The notes under the pieces were generated by a model. That model worked only from the letters and a program-made list of their open reading frames with translations, did not search any database and had not been told where the DNA came from. Positions 3,671 to 22,172 of a stretch of 64,000 nucleotides of DNA are shown in pieces. Within the stretch, counting starts at the first letter, position 1; each line of letters begins with the position of its first letter. The DNA comes from Clostridiales bacterium (GTDB lineage: Bacteria; Bacillota; Clostridia; Christensenellales; Aristaeellaceae): positions 1-64,000 of the forward strand of contig DUQF01000017.1 of NCBI GenBank assembly GCA_012837965.1, written 5' to 3'. Both the position numbers and the translations under genes were made by a program.

Positions 3671-3841
3671 ATGAGAAAAAGAAAGAGAAAGAGTTCTCAT
3701 CATGGCGATCAATTAAACATGAAATATCGTCAATCTATTCTTAGTATTGCTCAAAGACATGGTATAAACAAGGCTTTCGGAAAGTATAACAAAGTAAGGT
3801 TATATATTTTTTTTGACTCGGCAATTATGACTGAACCTTAG
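3671..3841 (+). pseudogene. Transposase helix-turn-helix remnant
   Basis: A 56-residue reading frame, preceded by gggaggc, that ends abruptly. The middle part (SIAQRHGINKAFGKYNK) resembles the N-terminal helix-turn-helix of IS3/IS481-type transposases, where a 'YAxxHGVxKAxxKYNxxRxYIYxW' pattern is usual. Here it stops just after the RLYIFF stretch and no DDE core follows. The surrounding DNA is clearly more AT-rich than its neighbours. I read it as the decayed 5' end of an insertion sequence. The family assignment rests on pattern resemblance only. A short expressed DNA-binding peptide is a less likely alternative. Confidence 0.5.
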
Positions 3842-14133: not shown

Positions 14134-15162
14134 TTACAAGCTGTCCGCCATATCCAGCACCAACCTTTCGCTCTTTTCCCAACCCAGGCAGGGGTCGGTA
14201 ATAGACTTGCCATAAATGCCTTCACCGATTTTTTGGGCGCCGTCTTCCAAATAGCTTTCCACCATGAAACCCTTGACCAGTTTCTTGATATTGGAATCCC
14301 AGGCCATGGATGCCATGACGTCACGGATAATACGTACCTGCTCAAAGGGGTTTTTGTTGGAATTGTCGTGGTTTGTATCGATTAAAACAGCCGGATTTTT
14401 CAAGCCCCACTCCTGATAAAGCTCATTTAATAACAAGAGGTCTTCATAGTGGTAGTTGGGCAAGGCATTTCCATGCTTGGAACGATAGCCCCTTAAAATG
14501 CAGTGGGTGTAGGGGTTGCCCTGGGAATGCGCTTCCCAGCCACGGTAAATAAAGGTGTGCTTTTGCTGGGCGGCAAAAACGGCATTGAGCATGACAGACA
14601 GGTCGCCGCCGGTCGGGTTTTTCATGCCCACCGCCGTTTCAAGGCCGCTGGCCGTCAGGCGGTGCTGCTGGTTTTCAACCGAGCGGGCGCCTACGGCGCT
14701 GTAGCACATGAGGTCGTCCAGATACTTGGCGTTTTCAGGGTAGAGCATTTCATCGGCGCAGGAAAAACCCGTTTCTTCCAAAGCGCGCATGTGCATTTTA
14801 CGAATGGCGACAATGCCTTTGAACATGTCCGGCTTATTGTTGGGGTCGGGTTGATGCAGCATGCCCTTATACCCTTCGCCCGTTGTACGGGGCTTGTTGG
14901 TATAGAGCCTTGGGACAATGTAAATTTTGTCTTTGACCTTTTCTTGCAGTTCCCGCAGGCGCTGAAGGTATTCCATGACGCTGTCTTCATTGTCGGCAGA
15001 GCAGGGACCGATGATAAGCAGCAGTTTGTCCGACCGGCCCGCAATAATGTCGCACACCTCTAACATGCGCTTTTGCACAATGTCAGACAGTTTCACCGAC
15101 AGCGGGTACATTTCCTTCACTTCCATGGGGATGGCGAGCTTGCGCTCAAAATACATATTCAT
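14134..15162 (-). CDS. aroF: 3-deoxy-D-arabino-heptulosonate 7-phosphate synthase (AroG/AroF-like)
   Basis: First step of the shikimate pathway: condenses phosphoenolpyruvate and erythrose 4-phosphate. The 342 residues and motifs LLIIGPCSADNEDSVMEYL, YTNKPRTTGEGYKG, GARSVENQQHR, GLETAVGMKNPTGGD, LIDTNHDNSNK and KGFMVESYLEDGAQ match the type I-alpha (E. coli AroF/G/H-like) class. Many Firmicutes instead use the I-beta form, often fused to chorismate mutase, so this class is worth noting. A gagagga site precedes the ATG. It is the last gene of the operon, 26 bp after tyrA. Allosteric specificity (Phe or Tyr) cannot be read by eye. Confidence 0.95.
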   Translation of the reverse strand: MNMYFERKLAIPMEVKEMYPLSVKLSDIVQKRMLEVCDIIAGRSDKLLLIIGPCSADNEDSVMEYLQRLRELQEKVKDKIYIVPRLYTNKPRTTGEGYKGMLHQPDPNNKPDMFKGIVAIRKMHMRALEETGFSCADEMLYPENAKYLDDLMCYSAVGARSVENQQHRLTASGLETAVGMKNPTGGDLSVMLNAVFAAQQKHTFIYRGWEAHSQGNPYTHCILRGYRSKHGNALPNYHYEDLLLLNELYQEWGLKNPAVLIDTNHDNSNKNPFEQVRIIRDVMASMAWDSNIKKLVKGFMVESYLEDGAQKIGEGIYGKSITDPCLGWEKSERLVLDMADSL

Positions 15163-15188
15163 ACAACTTTCCTCTCGATAGGTTGGTT

Positions 15189-16046
15189 TTACTTTTTATC
15201 AAACAGGGCACGGCGCTTGGTAGACAGGCGCATTTTTTCCCGCATACCTTCTACGTCACCAGAAGCAAGCAGGTTTCGAAAACAGGTAAATTCTTTTAGG
15301 AACTTGTCCATCTCATCAAGCAGGGCAGGCCTATTGAGCATAAACAGCTCGCTCCACATCTCATCGTTAATGCGGGCGATGCGGGTCAGGTCCCGGAAAG
15401 AATCGCCCGTATAGTCGACCAAATGGGTATTGTCACCGCAGGTCATCAGGCTAACGGCGATGCAGTGAGTCAGCTGGGACACAAAGCCTATCATCTTATC
15501 GTGGTCTTCGGGCGACAAGCGGGTAATGGTTTGAAAGCCTAAAATCCTGCCCAAGTCTTCGCACCAGCGGATGGCCCTTTGCGTGTTCTTTTCGGTGGGA
15601 ACCACAATGTAGTTGGCCTCCCTGAACATGGCGGGATCGGCGTTTTCAACACCATAGACTTCCTTGCCGGCCATGGGGTGGGCGGCGATAAACTCCACCG
15701 TATCAGGCAGCATGTCCTGAATGTCATAAACGACGGGCGCTTTAACGCCCGTGACATCGGTAAGCAGGGCGCCGGGCTTAAAGCAGTCTTTCCATTCTTT
15801 CATCCAATCCATCAGGATGGTCGGGTAGAGGCCAAAGACGACCGCATCGGCCCCTTTTAAAATGGAAGCCTCCGTATTGGTATGGCCCTTATCGATAATG
15901 CCGTTTTTGAGCGCATAGTCGATGGCTTCCTTGCGGGTGTCAATGGCCGATACATGATAGCCCAGACGCTTTAAGCCCATGGCATAGCTGCCGCCCATCA
16001 TGCCAAGGCCGACAATTAAAATTTGGCTTTGACTAATCCATTGCAT
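15189..16046 (-). CDS. tyrA: Prephenate dehydrogenase
   Basis: NAD(P)-dependent oxidative decarboxylation of prephenate to 4-hydroxyphenylpyruvate, the tyrosine branch. 285 residues. The Rossmann motif ILIVGLGMMGGSYAMGLKRLGY spans roughly residues 8-29 (GxGxxG as GLGMMG). HPMAGKEVYGVENAD and SPEDHDKMIGFVSQLTHCIA are typical TyrA active-site stretches. There is no C-terminal ACT domain, so Tyr feedback through ACT is unlikely. The start overlaps the aroA end by 14 bp, and a gagg site lies upstream of the ATG. Confidence 0.94.
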   Translation of the reverse strand: MQWISQSQILIVGLGMMGGSYAMGLKRLGYHVSAIDTRKEAIDYALKNGIIDKGHTNTEASILKGADAVVFGLYPTILMDWMKEWKDCFKPGALLTDVTGVKAPVVYDIQDMLPDTVEFIAAHPMAGKEVYGVENADPAMFREANYIVVPTEKNTQRAIRWCEDLGRILGFQTITRLSPEDHDKMIGFVSQLTHCIAVSLMTCGDNTHLVDYTGDSFRDLTRIARINDEMWSELFMLNRPALLDEMDKFLKEFTCFRNLLASGDVEGMREKMRLSTKRRALFDKK

Positions 16047-17250
16047 GAAGCTGAACCTCTACTTTCAGGGAGCGCAAAAGCTCCCAAAATTCCGGAAAAC
16101 TCTTGTTGACCGCCTCCGCCCCGTCGATTTCGGCTCCATACCTGGTGCCCAAAACCGCAAGGCTCATGGCAATTCGGTGGTCGTTGTGGCTGGACAGGCT
16201 TTCGCTTGGCGCATGCAGCTTGGCCGGATGAACGATGACCTCATTTTCTTCAATGGTGAGCTTTGCGCCAAATTTTTCAAGCTCCTCTTTCATGGCATTG
16301 GCGCGGTCGCTTTCCTTGATTTTCAGCCGCCTTGTACCAATAAAATGCGCCCCCTTTCCGTCCGCTGCCGCTATGGTAAACAGAATTGGCCCAAGATCGG
16401 GGCAGTCGGATAGGTCAATGGGCCACTCCCCCGCTTTGATTTTTCTAAAGTACTGGGGATACACGCTGTCGCCCTGCAAACTGTATTTCCAAAGCCCCTG
16501 CACATTGACCTTGCCGTCAAGCTCACCCAGCGCCGAGAGGAAGGCGGCGTTGGAATAGTCGCCCTCTACTCTTACACATTGCGGCTTGTAGCTTTGATTG
16601 CCGGGGATGCGGCAATCAAAGTGGCTCTCCCTCTTTATTTCAATACCGAATCGCTCCAGCGCTTGCACGGTTAAATCAAGGTAACTGGCGCTTTCAAAGG
16701 GCGGGAGAATTTTTAAGACGCTATCTTTTTCAAGCAAGGGAAGCGCAAACAGAAGCCCTGTCATAAATTGACTGGAAATATCGCCGGGCACAACAAATTT
16801 CCCTGCCTGTAAGGGGCCTTGCACCTGTAAGCCTTGCTTGTCCTTCATAAACAGAAGACCTTGCTTTTGGCAGATATCTTCATACACCGATAAGGGACGG
16901 GACAAAAGCTTTCCGGCGCCCGAAAGGCGCATCACTTCATTTGAAAGAAGACACAGGGGCACAAAAAACCTAAGGGTTGAGCCCGACTCATTGCAAAAAA
17001 GGCTGGCAGACCGGGCTTTTTTAACGTCCGCCCCCTCCACCAAAACGCCCTTTTGCGTTTTGGTAACCCGTGCGCCCAAAGCTTCTAAGCAACTAATGGT
17101 AGCCTTGATGTCCTCGGAAAAGCTGAGGTTATTAATACGGCTTTGTCCCTTAGATAGCCCTGCCGCAATCAGTAAGCGATGGGCAACCGACTTTGACGGC
17201 GGCGCAACAGCTATGCCCTCCGCCCTGCTTTTTTTAACAATGGCCCGCAT
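16033..17250 (-). CDS. aroA: 3-phosphoshikimate 1-carboxyvinyltransferase (EPSP synthase)
   Basis: Transfers enolpyruvyl from phosphoenolpyruvate to shikimate 3-phosphate. 405 residues from the ATG at 17250, which has a gcgaggaaaa site; a start 27 bp earlier has none. Motifs: PPSKSVAHRLLIAAGLSKG, NESGSTLRFFVPL, SSQFMTGLLFALPL, VEGDYSNAAFLSA, IKESDRANAMKEEL and SHNDHRIAMSLAVLG. The stretch after the first substrate loop (LSKGQSRINN) differs from plant-type enzymes, so class I or II glyphosate response is uncertain. It overlaps aroQ by 17 bp and tyrA by 14 bp. Confidence 0.95.
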   Translation of the reverse strand: MRAIVKKSRAEGIAVAPPSKSVAHRLLIAAGLSKGQSRINNLSFSEDIKATISCLEALGARVTKTQKGVLVEGADVKKARSASLFCNESGSTLRFFVPLCLLSNEVMRLSGAGKLLSRPLSVYEDICQKQGLLFMKDKQGLQVQGPLQAGKFVVPGDISSQFMTGLLFALPLLEKDSVLKILPPFESASYLDLTVQALERFGIEIKRESHFDCRIPGNQSYKPQCVRVEGDYSNAAFLSALGELDGKVNVQGLWKYSLQGDSVYPQYFRKIKAGEWPIDLSDCPDLGPILFTIAAADGKGAHFIGTRRLKIKESDRANAMKEELEKFGAKLTIEENEVIVHPAKLHAPSESLSSHNDHRIAMSLAVLGTRYGAEIDGAEAVNKSFPEFWELLRSLKVEVQLHAMD

Positions 17251-17680
17251 CTTTTCCTCGCTTGACAAATAAATCAATAGCCTCTAAATAGCCTTGCACA
17301 CCCTTACCGCTGATGGTCGCAAAAGAGGCTAAGCGAATGAAGCTGACTTGTCGAAAATCTTCCCGCTTTGTAACATCCGACAAATGTACCTCAACGCACG
17401 GGAGGTTTACGGCCTTTAAGGCGTCCAAAAGAGCGATGCTGGTGTGGGTATAGGCAGCAGGGTTAAAAACTATGCCGTCATAGCGCCCGTGCGCCTCTTG
17501 AATCCAGTCGACCAAAACGCCTTCGTGGTTGCTTTGACGAATGTCCACCAAAACGCCCGCATCTTGGGCATGACGCTCAATGCGCTCACACAAGCTTTGG
17601 TAGGTTTCCCGCCCGTAAATATCGGGTTCCCGAAGCCCCAAAAGATTTAGGTTAGGGCCGTTTAATACAAGTAATTTCAT
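17234..17680 (-). CDS. aroQ: Type II 3-dehydroquinate dehydratase
   Basis: Dehydrates 3-dehydroquinate to 3-dehydroshikimate. 148 residues with the type II marks LVLNGPNLNLLGLREPDIYG (the flexible lid with its catalytic Tyr and Arg), RQSNHEGVLVDWIQEA, FNPAAYTHTSIALLDAL and CVEVHLSDVTKREDFRQVS (the His of EVHLS). The start overlaps the aroE/K stop by 4 bp, and the end overlaps aroA. Clostridia often use type I (aroD), so the dodecameric type II enzyme here is a small point of interest. Confidence 0.96.
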   Translation of the reverse strand: MKLLVLNGPNLNLLGLREPDIYGRETYQSLCERIERHAQDAGVLVDIRQSNHEGVLVDWIQEAHGRYDGIVFNPAAYTHTSIALLDALKAVNLPCVEVHLSDVTKREDFRQVSFIRLASFATISGKGVQGYLEAIDLFVKRGKDAGHC

Positions 17681-18915
17681 GAGCTAATCCTATCTATAAT
17701 AGTTTGAGCCGCCGATTGAAAGCCATTTTGTTGATGGATGACCACATCGGCCGCTGCCCAGTAAACGGGAGCGCGTTGTTTGTAAAGGTTCATGATCTTT
17801 TCCTTGGTATCGGCAAGGGGCCGATCTCTTGTGGGCACAATGTTTTGCGGAGGGCGGTTAAGGAAGTATAGTCGCCCGCTTTGTTTCAGGCTCAAAACAT
17901 TTTCATCTCGCAACACAGTGCCGCCGCCCGTTGCGATAATGAGGCCTGAGCGCAAAGACAGCTCCTTGACAGCTTCAAACTCCAAGCGGCGGAAGCCTTC
18001 TTCGCCTTGAGTGCGAAAAATGTCGGAAATTTCCATTCCCGCCTTTTGCTTGATATAGCCGTCCACATCCACAAAGGGTCTGCCCATCGCATCCCTAATC
18101 ATCCTGCCGACGGTGGATTTGCCGCTGCCCGGCATACCAATCAAGACAATGTTTTCCTTTTGGTTTAAAAGCTCCTGATGGATGCGGGTTATCAGTTTTT
18201 CGTCCATAGGTTCGCCAAGGAACAATTCCGCCGCCTTAACGGCCTGGGCCACCAACATCAACAGCCCGCCTGAAGCCTTGGCATTCCTTTCCTGTGCGCT
18301 TAAAACAAGCGGCGTGCGCAAGGGGTTGTAAATAGCATCCACCACCCCTTCAAGCCAGTTAAAGGGCGCAAGGTCAATGGGGCTTTGACCAAGGTTTGGG
18401 AACATACCCATGGGCGTTGTGTTGATGATGATTTGGCTGCGCCGATAGTCGCTTGCAGCCTGTTCGTAAGTGATGGCGCCCGTTTTTACTGTGCGGCTGA
18501 CAATGGTCACGCTGTATGCGCCAAGGCTGTCCGCCACTGCCTTCGCGGTCTTGGCGGTGCCGCCCGAACCTAATATCAAAACGTCCTTGCCTCTTAAATC
18601 AAGCCCCACGCCATGAATGAGAGCCTTCATACCATCAAAATCGGTATTGTAGCCAAAAAGCTTGCCGTTTTGGTTGACCACTGTGTTGACAGCGCCAATA
18701 GCCTTTGCCTTGGGGCAGATTTCATCCAGCAAAGGCATGACCTGCTGCTTGTAGGGGATGGTAATGTTTAAGCCCCGAAAGTTTCTCCGAATAATAAAGC
18801 TGTCAAAATCTTCCCTTGCAACTTCAAACAACTGATAATCATAGCGCCCAAGGGCTTCATGAATGGTTTTGGAGTAGCTGTGCCCCAGCTTTTCTCCGAC
18901 TAAACCATAGCTCAT
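17677..18915 (-). CDS. aroE/aroK: Bifunctional shikimate dehydrogenase-shikimate kinase fusion
   Basis: 412 residues in two parts. Residues 1 to about 250 are AroE: GHSYS (11-15), IPYK with K56, AVNT (N77), YNTDFDG (D92), the NADPH loop LGSGGTAKT (115-123) and NTTPMGM. Residues 253 to 412 are AroK: Walker A GMPGSGKST (260-268), DVDGYI, the RTQGEEGFRRLE region, GGG (330-332) and the lid RDRPL (363-367). The fused enzyme reduces dehydroshikimate and phosphorylates shikimate, consecutive except that the intermediate must pass between the two sites. It overlaps aroB and aroQ by 4 bp each. The frame is continuous with no stop between the domains. Confidence 0.95.
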   Translation of the reverse strand: MSYGLVGEKLGHSYSKTIHEALGRYDYQLFEVAREDFDSFIIRRNFRGLNITIPYKQQVMPLLDEICPKAKAIGAVNTVVNQNGKLFGYNTDFDGMKALIHGVGLDLRGKDVLILGSGGTAKTAKAVADSLGAYSVTIVSRTVKTGAITYEQAASDYRRSQIIINTTPMGMFPNLGQSPIDLAPFNWLEGVVDAIYNPLRTPLVLSAQERNAKASGGLLMLVAQAVKAAELFLGEPMDEKLITRIHQELLNQKENIVLIGMPGSGKSTVGRMIRDAMGRPFVDVDGYIKQKAGMEISDIFRTQGEEGFRRLEFEAVKELSLRSGLIIATGGGTVLRDENVLSLKQSGRLYFLNRPPQNIVPTRDRPLADTKEKIMNLYKQRAPVYWAAADVVIHQQNGFQSAAQTIIDRISS

Positions 18916-19928
18916 GACCCCACCTCCAAAATATAGAGGGCATCCGTCAGCTGCTCCTCTGTTCGCTGTTCAAAGGAAAAGCGACCGACTTCCCCACAGT
19001 ACACCACCGTGATGGCGTCGCCCTCCCGCTTCTTGTCGTGCATGACCTTATCGATAACGGCTTGTTTATCCACCTTGATTTGGGTGGGCAGGCCGTATTT
19101 TTTGAGCGCCTTGTTTAGGCGTACCCGAACTTCCGGCGCACACATGGGCAGCATGCCAAGGGCGACGCACTCGCCGTGGTATAAGCCCTCTTGTCCCTGA
19201 ATGGCCTCAATGCCATGCCCCAAGGTATGGCCAAAGTTGAGAACCTTGCGCAGGCTCTCTTCCCTCTCGTCCCGTTCCACAACTTCCTGTTTTAGCAAAA
19301 CAGCCTGCCTGACAGCTTCCTCAATCCGTGCGAAAGGCGGTGAGTTTTCCAGCATTTCAAACAGACTTGCGTCCCGTGTTAAGGCGATTTTGATGATTTC
19401 AGCATAGCCGTTGTTCATCTGCCGTTTGGGTAAGGTTTGCAAAAGCTCGCTATCTATCAACACGCCTTTGGGTGGGTAAAAACAGCCTACAATGTTTTTG
19501 ACGCCTTGGAGATTGACAGCGGTTTTTCCGCCGATGGAAGAATCCACCTGGGATAGCACAGTGGTAGGCACGTTATAAAAGTCGATACCCCGCATATAGC
19601 AAGCAGCGGCAAAGCCGGCCGCATCGCCTACCACCCCGCCGCCCACAGCGACCACACAGTCCTTGCGGGTAAAGGAGCGATTTAACATAGCCAATTGCAG
19701 CTGTTCAAAATAGTGCAAACTCTTGGCTTCCTCCCCTTGAGGCAGGGTAAAAAGCGCCCCCTCCTTGCACATGGAAAGCAAGCTTTGTGCATAGCTTTCA
19801 GGAACGCCCGTGTCGGTTACCACCAGCGCCTTGCGGTTTAAGTTAAAGTATTCACTTGCCTTTCCAAGGCCGCCCTGTTCAAAAATGATGGGGTATGTAC
19901 CTGTGGATGTGCATACTTCAACCCTCAT
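18912..19928 (-). CDS. aroB: 3-dehydroquinate synthase
   Basis: NAD- and metal-dependent cyclisation of DAHP to 3-dehydroquinate. Motifs: LPQGEEAKSLHYFEQL, VAVGGGVVGDAAGFAAACYMRG, PTTVLSQVDSSIGGKTAVN, GCFYPPKGVLID, NNGYAEIIKIAL and the metal-binding LNFGHTLGHGIE. The start is uncertain. ATG at 19928 (MRVEVCTS) has agggctt upstream, while ATGs at 19949 and 19946 lie a little earlier. All overlap the end of pheA. The stop overlaps aroE/K by 4 bp. Confidence 0.95.
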   Translation of the reverse strand: MRVEVCTSTGTYPIIFEQGGLGKASEYFNLNRKALVVTDTGVPESYAQSLLSMCKEGALFTLPQGEEAKSLHYFEQLQLAMLNRSFTRKDCVVAVGGGVVGDAAGFAAACYMRGIDFYNVPTTVLSQVDSSIGGKTAVNLQGVKNIVGCFYPPKGVLIDSELLQTLPKRQMNNGYAEIIKIALTRDASLFEMLENSPPFARIEEAVRQAVLLKQEVVERDEREESLRKVLNFGHTLGHGIEAIQGQEGLYHGECVALGMLPMCAPEVRVRLNKALKKYGLPTQIKVDKQAVIDKVMHDKKREGDAITVVYCGEVGRFSFEQRTEEQLTDALYILEVGS

Positions 19929-21030
19929 AAGCCCTGTACCCTTCATCATCCCTGAGGTGAAAATGTCCCACCACCTTCACGGTGGAGCAGTGACGTCGCA
20001 AGTTTTGTAGCATCGCTTGCCCTTGTTCGCTTGTTTCATCGCCCTCGGCCTCCACGTAGAAATAATACTGCCAGGGCACGTTTTTCACAGGACGGGAGCG
20101 AAGCACCCGCATGTTAAACCCGTAGTCGGAAATAACTTGCACAGCCTTTGCCAGAGCGCCCGTTACGTTATTGACCATAAACAACAACAGGAAACCGCCG
20201 GGGTGTCCTGCCTTTAAGTTAAGCTCCCTTGCAGCAAACACCGCAAAACGGGTGGTGTTCAGGCTATTTTCCTGGATATTGTCTTTCAATACCTTGAGGC
20301 CGTACAGCTCGGCCGCCTCAAGGCTTGCGATAGCGGCAAGCTGTTTATCGCCCCTTTCTTTGACCATCTTGGCGGCAACAGCGGTGTTCACCGCCTCGGC
20401 CTGCTCATAGCCCCTATCTCTGATGAAAGCAGCGCACTGGGACAGCGCCTGCGGGTGGCTGATAACCCGCTTTACATCGTCCAAATTGCTTTCCTTCACG
20501 CCAAGCAAGTGCTGAGTAACCGGCAGGGAATACATGCCGTTAACGATTAAATCTCCTTTGAGCATTAAATCCATCACCTGACCCACTTCACCGGCAAAGC
20601 TGTTTTCAACCGGCAGGACGCAGCAGTCGCAGTCCCCTTTTTCCACCGCCTCGTAGGCAGCCTGAAAGTCGGGGTAAGAGGCGGCCGTACCGTCGGGAAA
20701 GACCCACCTGACCATGCGGTGAGCAAAGGCGCCCTCCACGCCTGAATAAGCGATGCGCATATTTTCAAGAAGCAGGCGCTGATATTTTCTTGATAACTTC
20801 ATCTCTTCTTGTAAAAAGCGAGCATAGTATTCTCTAAGCACGGGGTCGGAAATGTCAGCGGAGTTTTTCTCAATCACTTCTTTTTCCCGTGACGTGTCCA
20901 AAACAGGCAATCCCCGCTCCTTTTTATACTGCGCAACCCGCTTGACAGCCTCCATGCGCTCCAAAAATAACTGCGCCATTTCCTTGTCTACCCGGTTAAT
21001 CTGCGCACGTGCCTTTAATAATTCGTCCAT
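19918..21030 (-). CDS. pheA: Bifunctional chorismate mutase-prephenate dehydratase (P-protein)
   Basis: First gene of the aromatic operon. 370 residues from the ATG at 21030, chosen for its aaaggacgg site; an in-frame TTG lies 18 bp upstream. Residues 1 to about 85 form an AroQ-type chorismate mutase helix bundle (INRVDKEMAQLFLERM, LREYYARFLQEEMKLSR). The prephenate dehydratase follows (AYSGVEGAFAH, DCCVLPVENSFAGEVGQVMD, the TTRFAVF region). A C-terminal ACT domain (GALAKAVQVISDYGFNMRVLRSRPVKN) normally gives Phe feedback. It converts chorismate to phenylpyruvate. The Phe/Tyr-codon leader just upstream suggests control by attenuation. Confidence 0.95.
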   Translation of the reverse strand: MDELLKARAQINRVDKEMAQLFLERMEAVKRVAQYKKERGLPVLDTSREKEVIEKNSADISDPVLREYYARFLQEEMKLSRKYQRLLLENMRIAYSGVEGAFAHRMVRWVFPDGTAASYPDFQAAYEAVEKGDCDCCVLPVENSFAGEVGQVMDLMLKGDLIVNGMYSLPVTQHLLGVKESNLDDVKRVISHPQALSQCAAFIRDRGYEQAEAVNTAVAAKMVKERGDKQLAAIASLEAAELYGLKVLKDNIQENSLNTTRFAVFAARELNLKAGHPGGFLLLFMVNNVTGALAKAVQVISDYGFNMRVLRSRPVKNVPWQYYFYVEAEGDETSEQGQAMLQNLRRHCSTVKVVGHFHLRDDEGYRAYEG

Positions 21031-21049
21031 TTCGTCCGTCCTTTTCAAT

Positions 21050-21083
21050 AAAAAACCACCACTCCATGCAAACGAAGCGGTGG
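21050..21083 (-). terminator. Intrinsic terminator in the pheA leader (attenuator)
   Basis: Minus strand: an 8-bp stem (21083-21076 with 21063-21056, one G-U pair) and a 12-nt loop, then T6 at 21055-21050. It ends 20 bp before the pheA start codon, so it must be read through for operon expression. Its 5' arm (21088-21079) can instead pair with 21128-21119 over 8 perfect base pairs, giving a mutually exclusive antiterminator. That in turn competes with a 21155-21150/21135-21130 stem inside the leader peptide gene. Confidence 0.8.
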
Positions 21084-21103
21084 ATTGTTGTAGCTATAAC
21101 CTC

Positions 21104-21172
21104 TTAGGCAAGCAAGGCACAATCCATCGCAACCGTAAAATAAAATGAGCGGTTGTAAGCAATTTGCCTCAT
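21104..21172 (-). CDS. Phe/Tyr-codon leader peptide of the aromatic operon
   Basis: A 22-residue reading frame with an aggaggg site 7 nt upstream of its ATG, placed between a strong promoter and the terminator in front of pheA. It begins MRQIAYNRSFYFTVAM, so codon 6 is Tyr and codons 10-12 are Phe-Tyr-Phe (TTT TAT TTT). These codons lie in the loop of a CAACCG/CGGTTG stem. This is the layout of pheA-type leader-peptide attenuation known from enterobacteria. A ribosome stalled for charged Phe or Tyr tRNA would free segment 2 to form the antiterminator. An ATG 5 nt earlier is in another frame and stops at once. The function is inferred from layout. Confidence 0.75.
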   Translation of the reverse strand: MRQIAYNRSFYFTVAMDCALLA

Positions 21173-21202
21173 CGCATTGCCCTCCTGTAAGTAATTGTGT
21201 GA

Positions 21203-21231
21203 ATTGTACTGCTAAAGTCGACGGCTGTCAA
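21203..21231 (-). promoter_or_regulatory. Promoter of the aromatic amino acid operon
   Basis: Minus strand: -35 TTGACA (21231-21226), a 17-bp spacer and -10 TACAAT (21208-21203). It lies only 24 bp downstream of the stop of the preceding gene on the same strand. Transcription would start near 21197, giving a leader of about 165 nt that contains the leader peptide and attenuator. No separate terminator divides it from the upstream transcription unit. Confidence 0.8.
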
Positions 21232-21254
21232 GCAAAGTACAGGATAAATACCTT

Positions 21255-22172
21255 TCACGGAGCAGGCTGGGTAGTCACATACCACAGCTTACCATTTGTT
21301 TCAAGGCGAATGGTCCTGTTGATGTAGTATCGGGGAACCCTGCGATTTTGGAGAGCCTTTTCCAGCCTCTCCGCACTGGATTTTTGATTGGTGATAATGA
21401 CAAGCTGCGGCGCCACCGTATCGAAATACGGATAAAACAATCTATCAATGCCATGATGGGGAATTTTATAAATATCGCTTTTAAACAAAGAGTGATCAAA
21501 ATTCTCCAGCATCCACTTTTGGGCATCGGCGCCAATATCGGCTGTCAGCAAAATCTTGGCGTCGCCAAATTCTACCATGGTCACCAAGCAATGGTTGTTA
21601 ATGTCAATACCCTTTTTGTCCCAGCGCCAAACGGTCATCTTCGCCCCGCCAAAGTCAATCACATCCCCCGTCACAAGCTTCCTGTGCTCAATGCCGCTTT
21701 TTTCAAGCTTGGGCACGTACTGTCGCCACAGTTCGTAGGTGGATTCCAAATTATAGGGGGAATATTGAACAGCCGGTTGATAGCCCTTGCCAAGTAAAAT
21801 ACCCGGCACCTCGATATGATCATCGTGGGCATGGGTTAAAAGAAAGGCGTCAAATGCGTCCTTCCCTTCGATTTGATTAAACTGCAAATACCGCTCAACA
21901 GCGCCAATCTTAAACTCCGGGCCTCCGTCAATGAGCATGCGCTTGCCGCCGCAGGAAATAACGATGCTGTCGCCCCGATAGATGCCAAGAAAATCGATGG
22001 TTAATATGGCCTCATCTTCTTCAAACGGGCAATGGGCGATAAATTCCACCTCATCTACTTCCGGCGCTTTTGTTCCAAGCTGATAATAAATGGGCAGCCC
22101 CTGGGCTGAAGCCTGACATAAAAGCATAGTCACAAGCAAAAACAGAATGATACGTAGCATCGTCTTTTTCAT
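21255..22172 (-). CDS. Secreted metallo-beta-lactamase-fold hydrolase (ComEC C-domain-like)
   Basis: 305 residues from the ATG at 22172, which follows aaggaga. The N-terminus MKKTMLRIILFLLVTMLLCQASAQG is a signal peptide or anchor. The metal motif THAHDDHIEVPG (HxHxDH) is clear, preceded by LTIDFLGIYRGDSIVISCGGKRMLIDGGPE and followed by LLTADIGADAQKWML and KIPHHGID. This order is typical of the MBL domain of ComEC/Rec2-like proteins found as stand-alone secreted enzymes. The substrate is unknown, with nucleic acid or phosphodiester hydrolysis the usual guess. It starts 11 bp after PBP1A and is probably co-transcribed with it. Confidence 0.8.
   Translation of the reverse strand: MKKTMLRIILFLLVTMLLCQASAQGLPIYYQLGTKAPEVDEVEFIAHCPFEEDEAILTIDFLGIYRGDSIVISCGGKRMLIDGGPEFKIGAVERYLQFNQIEGKDAFDAFLLTHAHDDHIEVPGILLGKGYQPAVQYSPYNLESTYELWRQYVPKLEKSGIEHRKLVTGDVIDFGGAKMTVWRWDKKGIDINNHCLVTMVEFGDAKILLTADIGADAQKWMLENFDHSLFKSDIYKIPHHGIDRLFYPYFDTVAPQLVIITNQKSSAERLEKALQNRRVPRYYINRTIRLETNGKLWYVTTQPAP

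Follow-up and report, generated by a model that had tools for sequence, protein, structure and literature searches.

How an operon for phenylalanine and tyrosine synthesis is controlled in a member of the class Clostridia is the question raised by the window analyzed here, a stretch of 64,000 nucleotides from contig DUQF01000017.1 of a gut-type Clostridiales bacterium (family Aristaeellaceae). Accounts of how Firmicutes control their amino-acid genes are usually built around T-boxes and RNA-binding proteins, and an earlier note, made from the sequence of this window, had proposed a pheA-type attenuator operated by the ribosome on a leader peptide. Our comparative analyses support this reading, and the region upstream of pheA very probably is a transcription attenuator of this kind, sensing charged tRNA-Phe and tRNA-Tyr.

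All of the features described for the window lie on the minus strand. The first structural gene is pheA (19918..21030), encoding a bifunctional chorismate mutase/prephenate dehydratase (matches to PRK10622 and TIGR01805). It is followed by aroB (3-dehydroquinate synthase, 18912..19949; TIGR01357, over cut-off), an aroE-aroK fusion (shikimate dehydrogenase and shikimate kinase, 17677..18915; profile match), an aroQ-like gene for a type II 3-dehydroquinate dehydratase (17234..17680; from the NGPNLN start of the sequence only), aroA (EPSP synthase, 16033..17277; TIGR01356), tyrA (prephenate dehydrogenase, 15189..16046; profile match) and, as the last gene, an aroF-type DAHP synthase gene (14134..15162; TIGR00034, over cut-off), giving the order pheA-aroB-aroEK-aroQ-aroA-tyrA-aroF. 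The start of pheA is most likely ATG 21030 rather than the TTG at 21048 given by the ORF finder, because an AGGA lies at the right distance before this ATG and the genes of the relatives start at the same place.

The elements of a leader are all found upstream of this gene, at the positions that the earlier note had given. A sigma-70-type promoter (21203..21231; TTGACA at 21231-21226, a 17-nt spacer and TACAAT at 21208-21203) matches the consensus at 11 of 12 positions and is the only promoter-like site within 20900-21400, where shuffled sequences lead one to expect 0.7. The Shine-Dalgarno sequence AGGAGG (21181..21186), which has a counterpart in most relatives, precedes a frame of 22 codons encoding MRQIAYNRSFYFTVAMDCALLA (21104..21172; ATG at 21172, TAA at 21106-21104), and this short frame between the promoter and the first structural gene would be translated. 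It carries a Tyr codon (TAC, 21155..21157) at codon 6 and the control codons TTT TAT TTT (Phe-Tyr-Phe, 21137..21145) at codons 10-12, which end two codons ahead of the GCGATGGAT segment as they do in relatives. Farther downstream an intrinsic terminator (21050..21083) is formed by a 12-bp stem, 21083-21072 with 21067-21056, and six T residues at 21055-21050. It is the single terminator in the gap before pheA, in keeping with the suggestion that transcripts coming in from the upstream gene end there too.

Four segments of this leader can pair in alternative ways. Segment 1 (GGCAAAUU...CAACCG, 21150..21168) can pair with segment 2 (CGGUUGCGAUGGAUUGUGCC, 21116..21135), placing the control codons in the loop, and 21155-21150 (CAACCG) pairs at every position with 21135-21130 (CGGUUG). 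Segment 2 contains the conserved antiterminator arm GCGAUGGAU (21130-21122), and segment 3 (ACAAUCCACCGC, 21077..21088) serves both as the 3' arm of the antiterminator and as the 5' arm of the terminator; in DNA terms, GCGATGGAT, which encodes A-M-D, is complementary to the terminator 5' arm ATCCACCGC. Two of the pairings had been drawn somewhat differently: the antiterminator proposed between 21128-21119 and 21088-21079 stands as nine pairs with one A.C mismatch (21127.21080) and extends to 21130:21077, and the terminator pairing of 21083-21076 with 21063-21056 is present together with its T6, in a stem that is longer than claimed (12 pairs). RNA folding of the leader, which had been suggested as a check, gave -46.9 kcal/mol against -37.2 +/- 3.8 for shuffled sequences (z -2.6), and the terminator piece by itself gave -19.7 kcal/mol (z -2.3). 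Such folding energies of a single sequence are modest evidence, and it is the comparison with relatives that is decisive.

No close copy of the window's pheA was found in the five congeners searched (G001-G005); therefore, a close-relative comparison was not available, and more distant pheA loci were used. The operon (14134-21048 of the window) is thus unevenly distributed in the genus, and its gain or loss may have involved the whole block. A DNA-level search with the window leader returned no match in 40 relatives, indicating that the leader is conserved as a pattern and not as a sequence. We gathered PheA relatives from whole genomes and from genome_contigs and scanned their upstream regions for short frames, taking as a motif match at least four Phe/Tyr in the six codons preceding xxA[M/I/V][D/E/G]. 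Of 80 upstream regions 25 matched, whereas the antisense strand matched once and shuffling predicts 0.05 matches; four further leaders (L048, L066, L093 and L101) were recognized by eye or by covariance search, bringing the pheA loci with the leader to 29 of the 80 closest in genome_contigs. In this family a short frame contains four to six Phe/Tyr codons, five or six being usual; two free codons later it continues with A-M-D, A-I-D or a close variant. The segment of the "AMD" codons reads GCGAUGGAU, lies exactly two codons past the aromatic codons and pairs with the 5' arm of the terminator. As the earlier note had predicted for homologous leaders, the frame and its Phe/Tyr codons are kept, at 165 of 186 control positions (six in each of 31 pheA leaders; 90 Tyr and 75 Phe); the 31 are the 29 leaders, the window, L116 and L123, with L075 omitted as a near-copy.

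The remaining loci among the 80 show that the control of pheA operons is varied in this group and seems to have been swapped often: nine have a second aromatic leader, 11 a palindrome and 31 none of these, in several cases because another gene comes before pheA. The palindrome, GTTAAC-N3-GTTAAC, lies within about 50 nt of pheA (L038, L064, L065, L070, L077, L081, L082, L087, L088, L099 and L108) and is probably the operator of a repressor that takes the place of the attenuator. The second aromatic leader is located 80-260 nt before pheA (L033, L044, L067, L083 and L084, with variants in L041, L047, L051 and L091) and has the residues FTF[A/V]RFFAG[F/W/Y]xFY. In L033, L067, L083 and L084 its TTTAC[A/G]TTCG has a possible pairing partner, CG[A/G]ATGTAA, at the stop codon, and in L084 there is, in addition, a match between CAGAGCCGC and the terminator arm GCGGCTCTG; this leader is possibly an independent attenuator family or a peptide-specific arrest. 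Two of its carriers, L047 and L051, come from MAGs labelled Spirochaetaceae/Treponema, and their pheA operons reflect either transfer from Clostridia or mis-binning. At L101, which belongs to the first family, a tRNA-Arg(CCT) gene (3739-3813) is located directly upstream of the pheA leader.

Evidence of a switch comes from the arm that the antiterminator and the terminator share. In an alignment of 28 leaders (A1), several rows of which are closely related, the antiterminator stem is 97.4% paired, with three of its seven pairs (8 cells) altered on both sides; none of 500 shuffles reached its pairing score, and slid registers were 30-63% paired. The terminator stem is 86.7% paired, with four pairs (9 cells) altered on both sides, so that compensatory changes, which the earlier note had named as supporting evidence, are found in both stems. 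In six leaders the three arms read GCGAUUGAU, UUCAACCGC and GCGGUU (terminator 3' arm), a change from G-C to U-A that is kept in both helices. A triple change in L074 (GUGAUGGA, UCCACCAC and GUGGUG) likewise keeps both helices, this leader also being given as GUGAUGGAA with CUCCACCAC and GUGGUG, and L101 shows another triple, ACGAUGGAA with GUCAUCGUU and GCGAUGAC. The A.C mismatch of the antiterminator is retained in most leaders, and in L066 and L093 it has become G-C with the neighbouring pair broken instead (GCGGCGGA). Because a change at one site is matched at two other sites, the leaders bear the signature of two mutually exclusive helices that would compete for one shared arm.

The pairing of segments 1 and 2 is more variable. 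In most relatives a duplex is possible between the region of the start codon (e.g., ACAAUGUUUUUCAAUUGC in L060) and the AMD arm together with the bases that follow it (GCGAUUGAUUAAACAUUGU), the Phe/Tyr codons being enclosed in its loop. The median duplex energy across the family is -21.7 kcal/mol, and the median z, calculated with shuffled partners, is -3.1. The window's own duplex, in which GGCAAAUU and CAACCG face CGGUUG, GAUU and UGCC, has -13.3 kcal/mol (leader piece); it falls short of those of the relatives and is not significant alone (z -1.6). Five leaders (L037, L116, L117, L118 and L123) lack the pairing; in these the stop codon lies within three codons past AMD, and the terminating ribosome itself would cover the arm or most of it. 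RNAalifold found no consensus structure in the 5' half of the leaders, probably owing to the variable distance from segment 1 to the control codons, and the per-sequence duplex tests with shuffles took its place for this segment. Taken together, the four-segment logic of pairings 1:2, 2:3 and 3:4 appears to be present, with 2:3 and 3:4 supported by covariation and 1:2 statistically at the level of the family.

We propose the following course of events. RNA polymerase would start at the promoter (21231-21203) and a ribosome would begin the leader peptide. When Phe- or Tyr-tRNA is scarce, the ribosome would stall at codon 6 or at codons 10-12, where it would sit on segment 1 and leave the GCGAUGGAU arm (21130-21122) free; segment 3, on emerging, would then pair with this arm as the antiterminator, the terminator would not form, and pheA-aroB-aroEK-aroQ-aroA-tyrA-aroF would be transcribed. 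When both tRNAs are charged, the ribosome would read on through segment 2 as far as the stop codon; segment 3 would be free, and the terminator would form ahead of pheA. The stalling, the co-transcriptional order and the response to starvation are what we infer from the arrangement of the leader.

Folding calculations indicate which parts of this scheme depend on timing. At equilibrium the full-length naked RNA of the window prefers the antiterminator side, and thus the default state would depend on kinetics and translation. Adding a ribosome footprint to the equilibrium folding did not tell the states apart, because many of the terminators win at full length, an indecision that can be expected for a kinetic switch. 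Truncated transcripts ending just past segment 3 were folded instead. The window's antiterminator segment alone has -20.4 kcal/mol and the terminator -17.7 kcal/mol. In the truncated transcripts, a ribosome on the fourth of the six control codons gives an antiterminator probability of 0.97 on average, and one on the last control codon gives 0.86 for the inner pairs, the model masking the outer GCG pairs of the arm when the last Phe codon is in the A site. Where the stop codon follows soon after AMD, a ribosome at the stop covers the arm fully (probability 0), and where it is distant, the simple masking model leaves the core arm uncovered. Because of the latter, release of the arm in distant-stop leaders would have to be prevented by segment 1, by the bulk of the ribosome in the loop or by further ribosomes close behind it.

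The conservation of the peptide itself invites another explanation, namely that the aromatic run and AMD stop the ribosome by programmed nascent-peptide arrest, sensing free Phe/Tyr or another small molecule in the way that TnaC senses tryptophan. The A-M-D positions after the aromatic run are conserved, and 29 of the 31 pheA leaders have UUU (Phe) as their last control codon, as such an arrest might require. However, pairing of the RNA accounts for the conservation of AMD, since its nucleotides covary with the terminator arm even where the residues change (GCGAUUGAU giving AID and GUGAUGGAA giving VME), and Phe and Tyr stand in for each other in the aromatic run, whose make-up changes with the gene that is controlled. 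We consider this explanation improbable. Still less probable is that the short frame is a mere by-product and that the terminator is constitutive or under protein control, through an RNA-binding protein like TRAP or a repressor acting at the promoter: control of the pheA operon by proteins probably does exist in the group, as the palindrome present near pheA instead of the leader in 11 of 80 relatives indicates, but no such palindrome is seen before the window's pheA, frame, codons and spacing are conserved beyond chance, and covariation of three segments calls for an RNA switch.

A T-box that binds tRNA, or some other riboswitch, hidden in the same region has the least claim of all and is very hard to credit, even though the genome does possess T-boxes before its tRNA-synthetase genes. 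The leader is only about 150 nt long, and neither it, nor the window, nor the relatives with the same leader gave a T-box or riboswitch match. A T-box in the leader was a finding that the earlier note had named as counting against the attenuator, and none appeared there even with permissive filters (E up to 5), nor in the search of the whole window. Likewise, no leader, T-box or riboswitch of Rfam 15 matched the window or the relatives' loci checked, with no match at gathering; matches to GcvB, NsiR1, CRISPR-DR36 and U6atac fell far under the cut-offs and were taken as chance. With frame, codons, spacing and two covarying helices kept in relatives, the ribosome-mediated attenuator is the reading with which we proceed.

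A covariance model of the family (R1) was used to search the window's genome and the genomes of its order, class and phylum. In the window's genome the leader described here was the sole confident match (E 7e-6; next best E 3.3). Besides the window, there were three convincing members in 297 genomes of the order and five in 391 of the class, and no member was found in 398 genomes of the phylum searched with stricter filters. A match in G037 (L119, E 0.007) was rejected, as it begins only at model position 34 and represents a terminator without the leader. In G219, from the window's family, a frame encoding MFAYSYFYFYSIAMDS precedes pheA in the same kind of operon, and in G649 one encoding MNKYSTKNFFFFRHAMDRSI precedes pheA-aroB-aroC-aroEK-aroA-aroF (gene names partly from sequence). 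Four genomes (G135, G291, G452 and G537) have the leader before a gene for a PaaK-type phenylacetate-CoA ligase, an assignment that rests on TIGR02155 with E about 1e-157 in the two tested, under the model's strict cut-off. The loci are L118/L133, L117/L134, L120 and L121/L135, and a small ACT-type protein follows PaaK in the three downstream regions read (L133, L134 and L135; G135, G291 and G452). In G609 and G692 the leader precedes a gene for a TrpX-type ABC substrate-binding protein (NF041285, E 4e-91 for G609, under cut-off).

The control codons follow the gene: Tyr and Phe for pheA, mostly Phe for paaK (12 Phe against 2 Tyr) and mostly Tyr for trpX (9 Tyr against 3 Phe). It is about an even chance, in our estimation, that these leaders are an undescribed Phe/Tyr attenuator family forming a small regulon in Clostridia, composed of the pheA operon, a TrpX-type transporter and a PaaK-type ligase with its ACT protein. 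If so, the PaaK enzymes would serve the synthesis of Phe from phenylacetate rather than its breakdown and would be switched on by Phe starvation. Phenylacetyl-CoA can undergo reductive carboxylation to phenylpyruvate, and hence yield Phe; a biosynthetic direction, at which the Phe-rich codons are hinting, would fit because the leader before PaaK is a putative Phe-starvation attenuator. At the trpX loci (L122/L136 and L124) the Tyr-rich attenuator precedes a TrpXYZ-type ABC transporter, which, though named for tryptophan, may carry tyrosine there. The family provides a search model for Phe/Tyr-controlled genes in uncultured gut Clostridia, in which the control codons suggest roles for the ligase and the transporter.

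In a comparative study of 2005, most synthetase genes of Firmicutes were under T-boxes and none under classical attenuation (PMC1262725). The window's genome (G000) bears out the contrast between T-boxes and attenuators that the earlier note had drawn: it has seven T-box matches (L125-L131), before Tyr-, Ile-, Phe-, His-, Val-, Ser- and Thr-tRNA synthetase genes (named from their protein sequences, PheS and TyrRS among them), and none of the seven precedes a biosynthetic operon. Within one genome, T-boxes thus appear to be used for the Phe and Tyr synthetases and a second system, a ribosome-sensing attenuator, for making these same amino acids.

In the literature searched, few leader-peptide attenuators are described in Firmicutes, namely those for His in Bacillus, the Leu/phe leader in Lactococcus lactis and a suspected one before aroF in Acholeplasma. 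A survey of attenuation across phyla by Lopatovskaya and colleagues in 2010, cited in PMC4833913, may include Firmicutes cases. Our literature search, thin in subscription papers, found no report of a pheA or Phe/Tyr leader in Clostridia. The Leu/phe leader (RF01743) is a listed leader motif reported only from L. lactis (PMC2864571); it shares with the window leader a Gram-positive host of the same phylum, and the window leader has no Rfam match to it. In Bacillus, His leader peptides before hisZ / hisS* are Firmicutes attenuators in place of T-boxes, and their authors knew of no earlier leader-peptide cases outside Proteobacteria and Actinobacteria, ermC aside (PMC2965389); compared by description only, they differ from the window leader in their His codons and in the genes that they precede. 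The uORFC-13-1 motif before aroF in Acholeplasma is a predicted short frame that lies beside a terminator and has one or more Phe codons (PMC8632094). Also compared by description only, it resembles the window leader in preceding a shikimate gene, but is confined to a single genus and to a different gene.

The closest counterpart is the enterobacterial pheL, known from E. coli, a short leader rich in Phe codons before pheA, with four-segment logic and a U-run terminator, which is represented in Rfam by the Phe leader family. Unlike pheL, the window leader matches no Rfam covariance model, mixes Tyr with Phe, heads a whole operon from shikimate to Phe/Tyr in a host of the class Clostridia, and has the conserved GCGAUGGAU arm two codons past its aromatic run. 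Like pheL, it places a short leader rich in aromatic codons before pheA and appears to follow the four-segment logic, with an antiterminator and a U-run terminator. The mechanism is classical; the family, its leader of mixed Phe and Tyr codons, its spread in Clostridia and its putative regulon are, to the extent searched, new.
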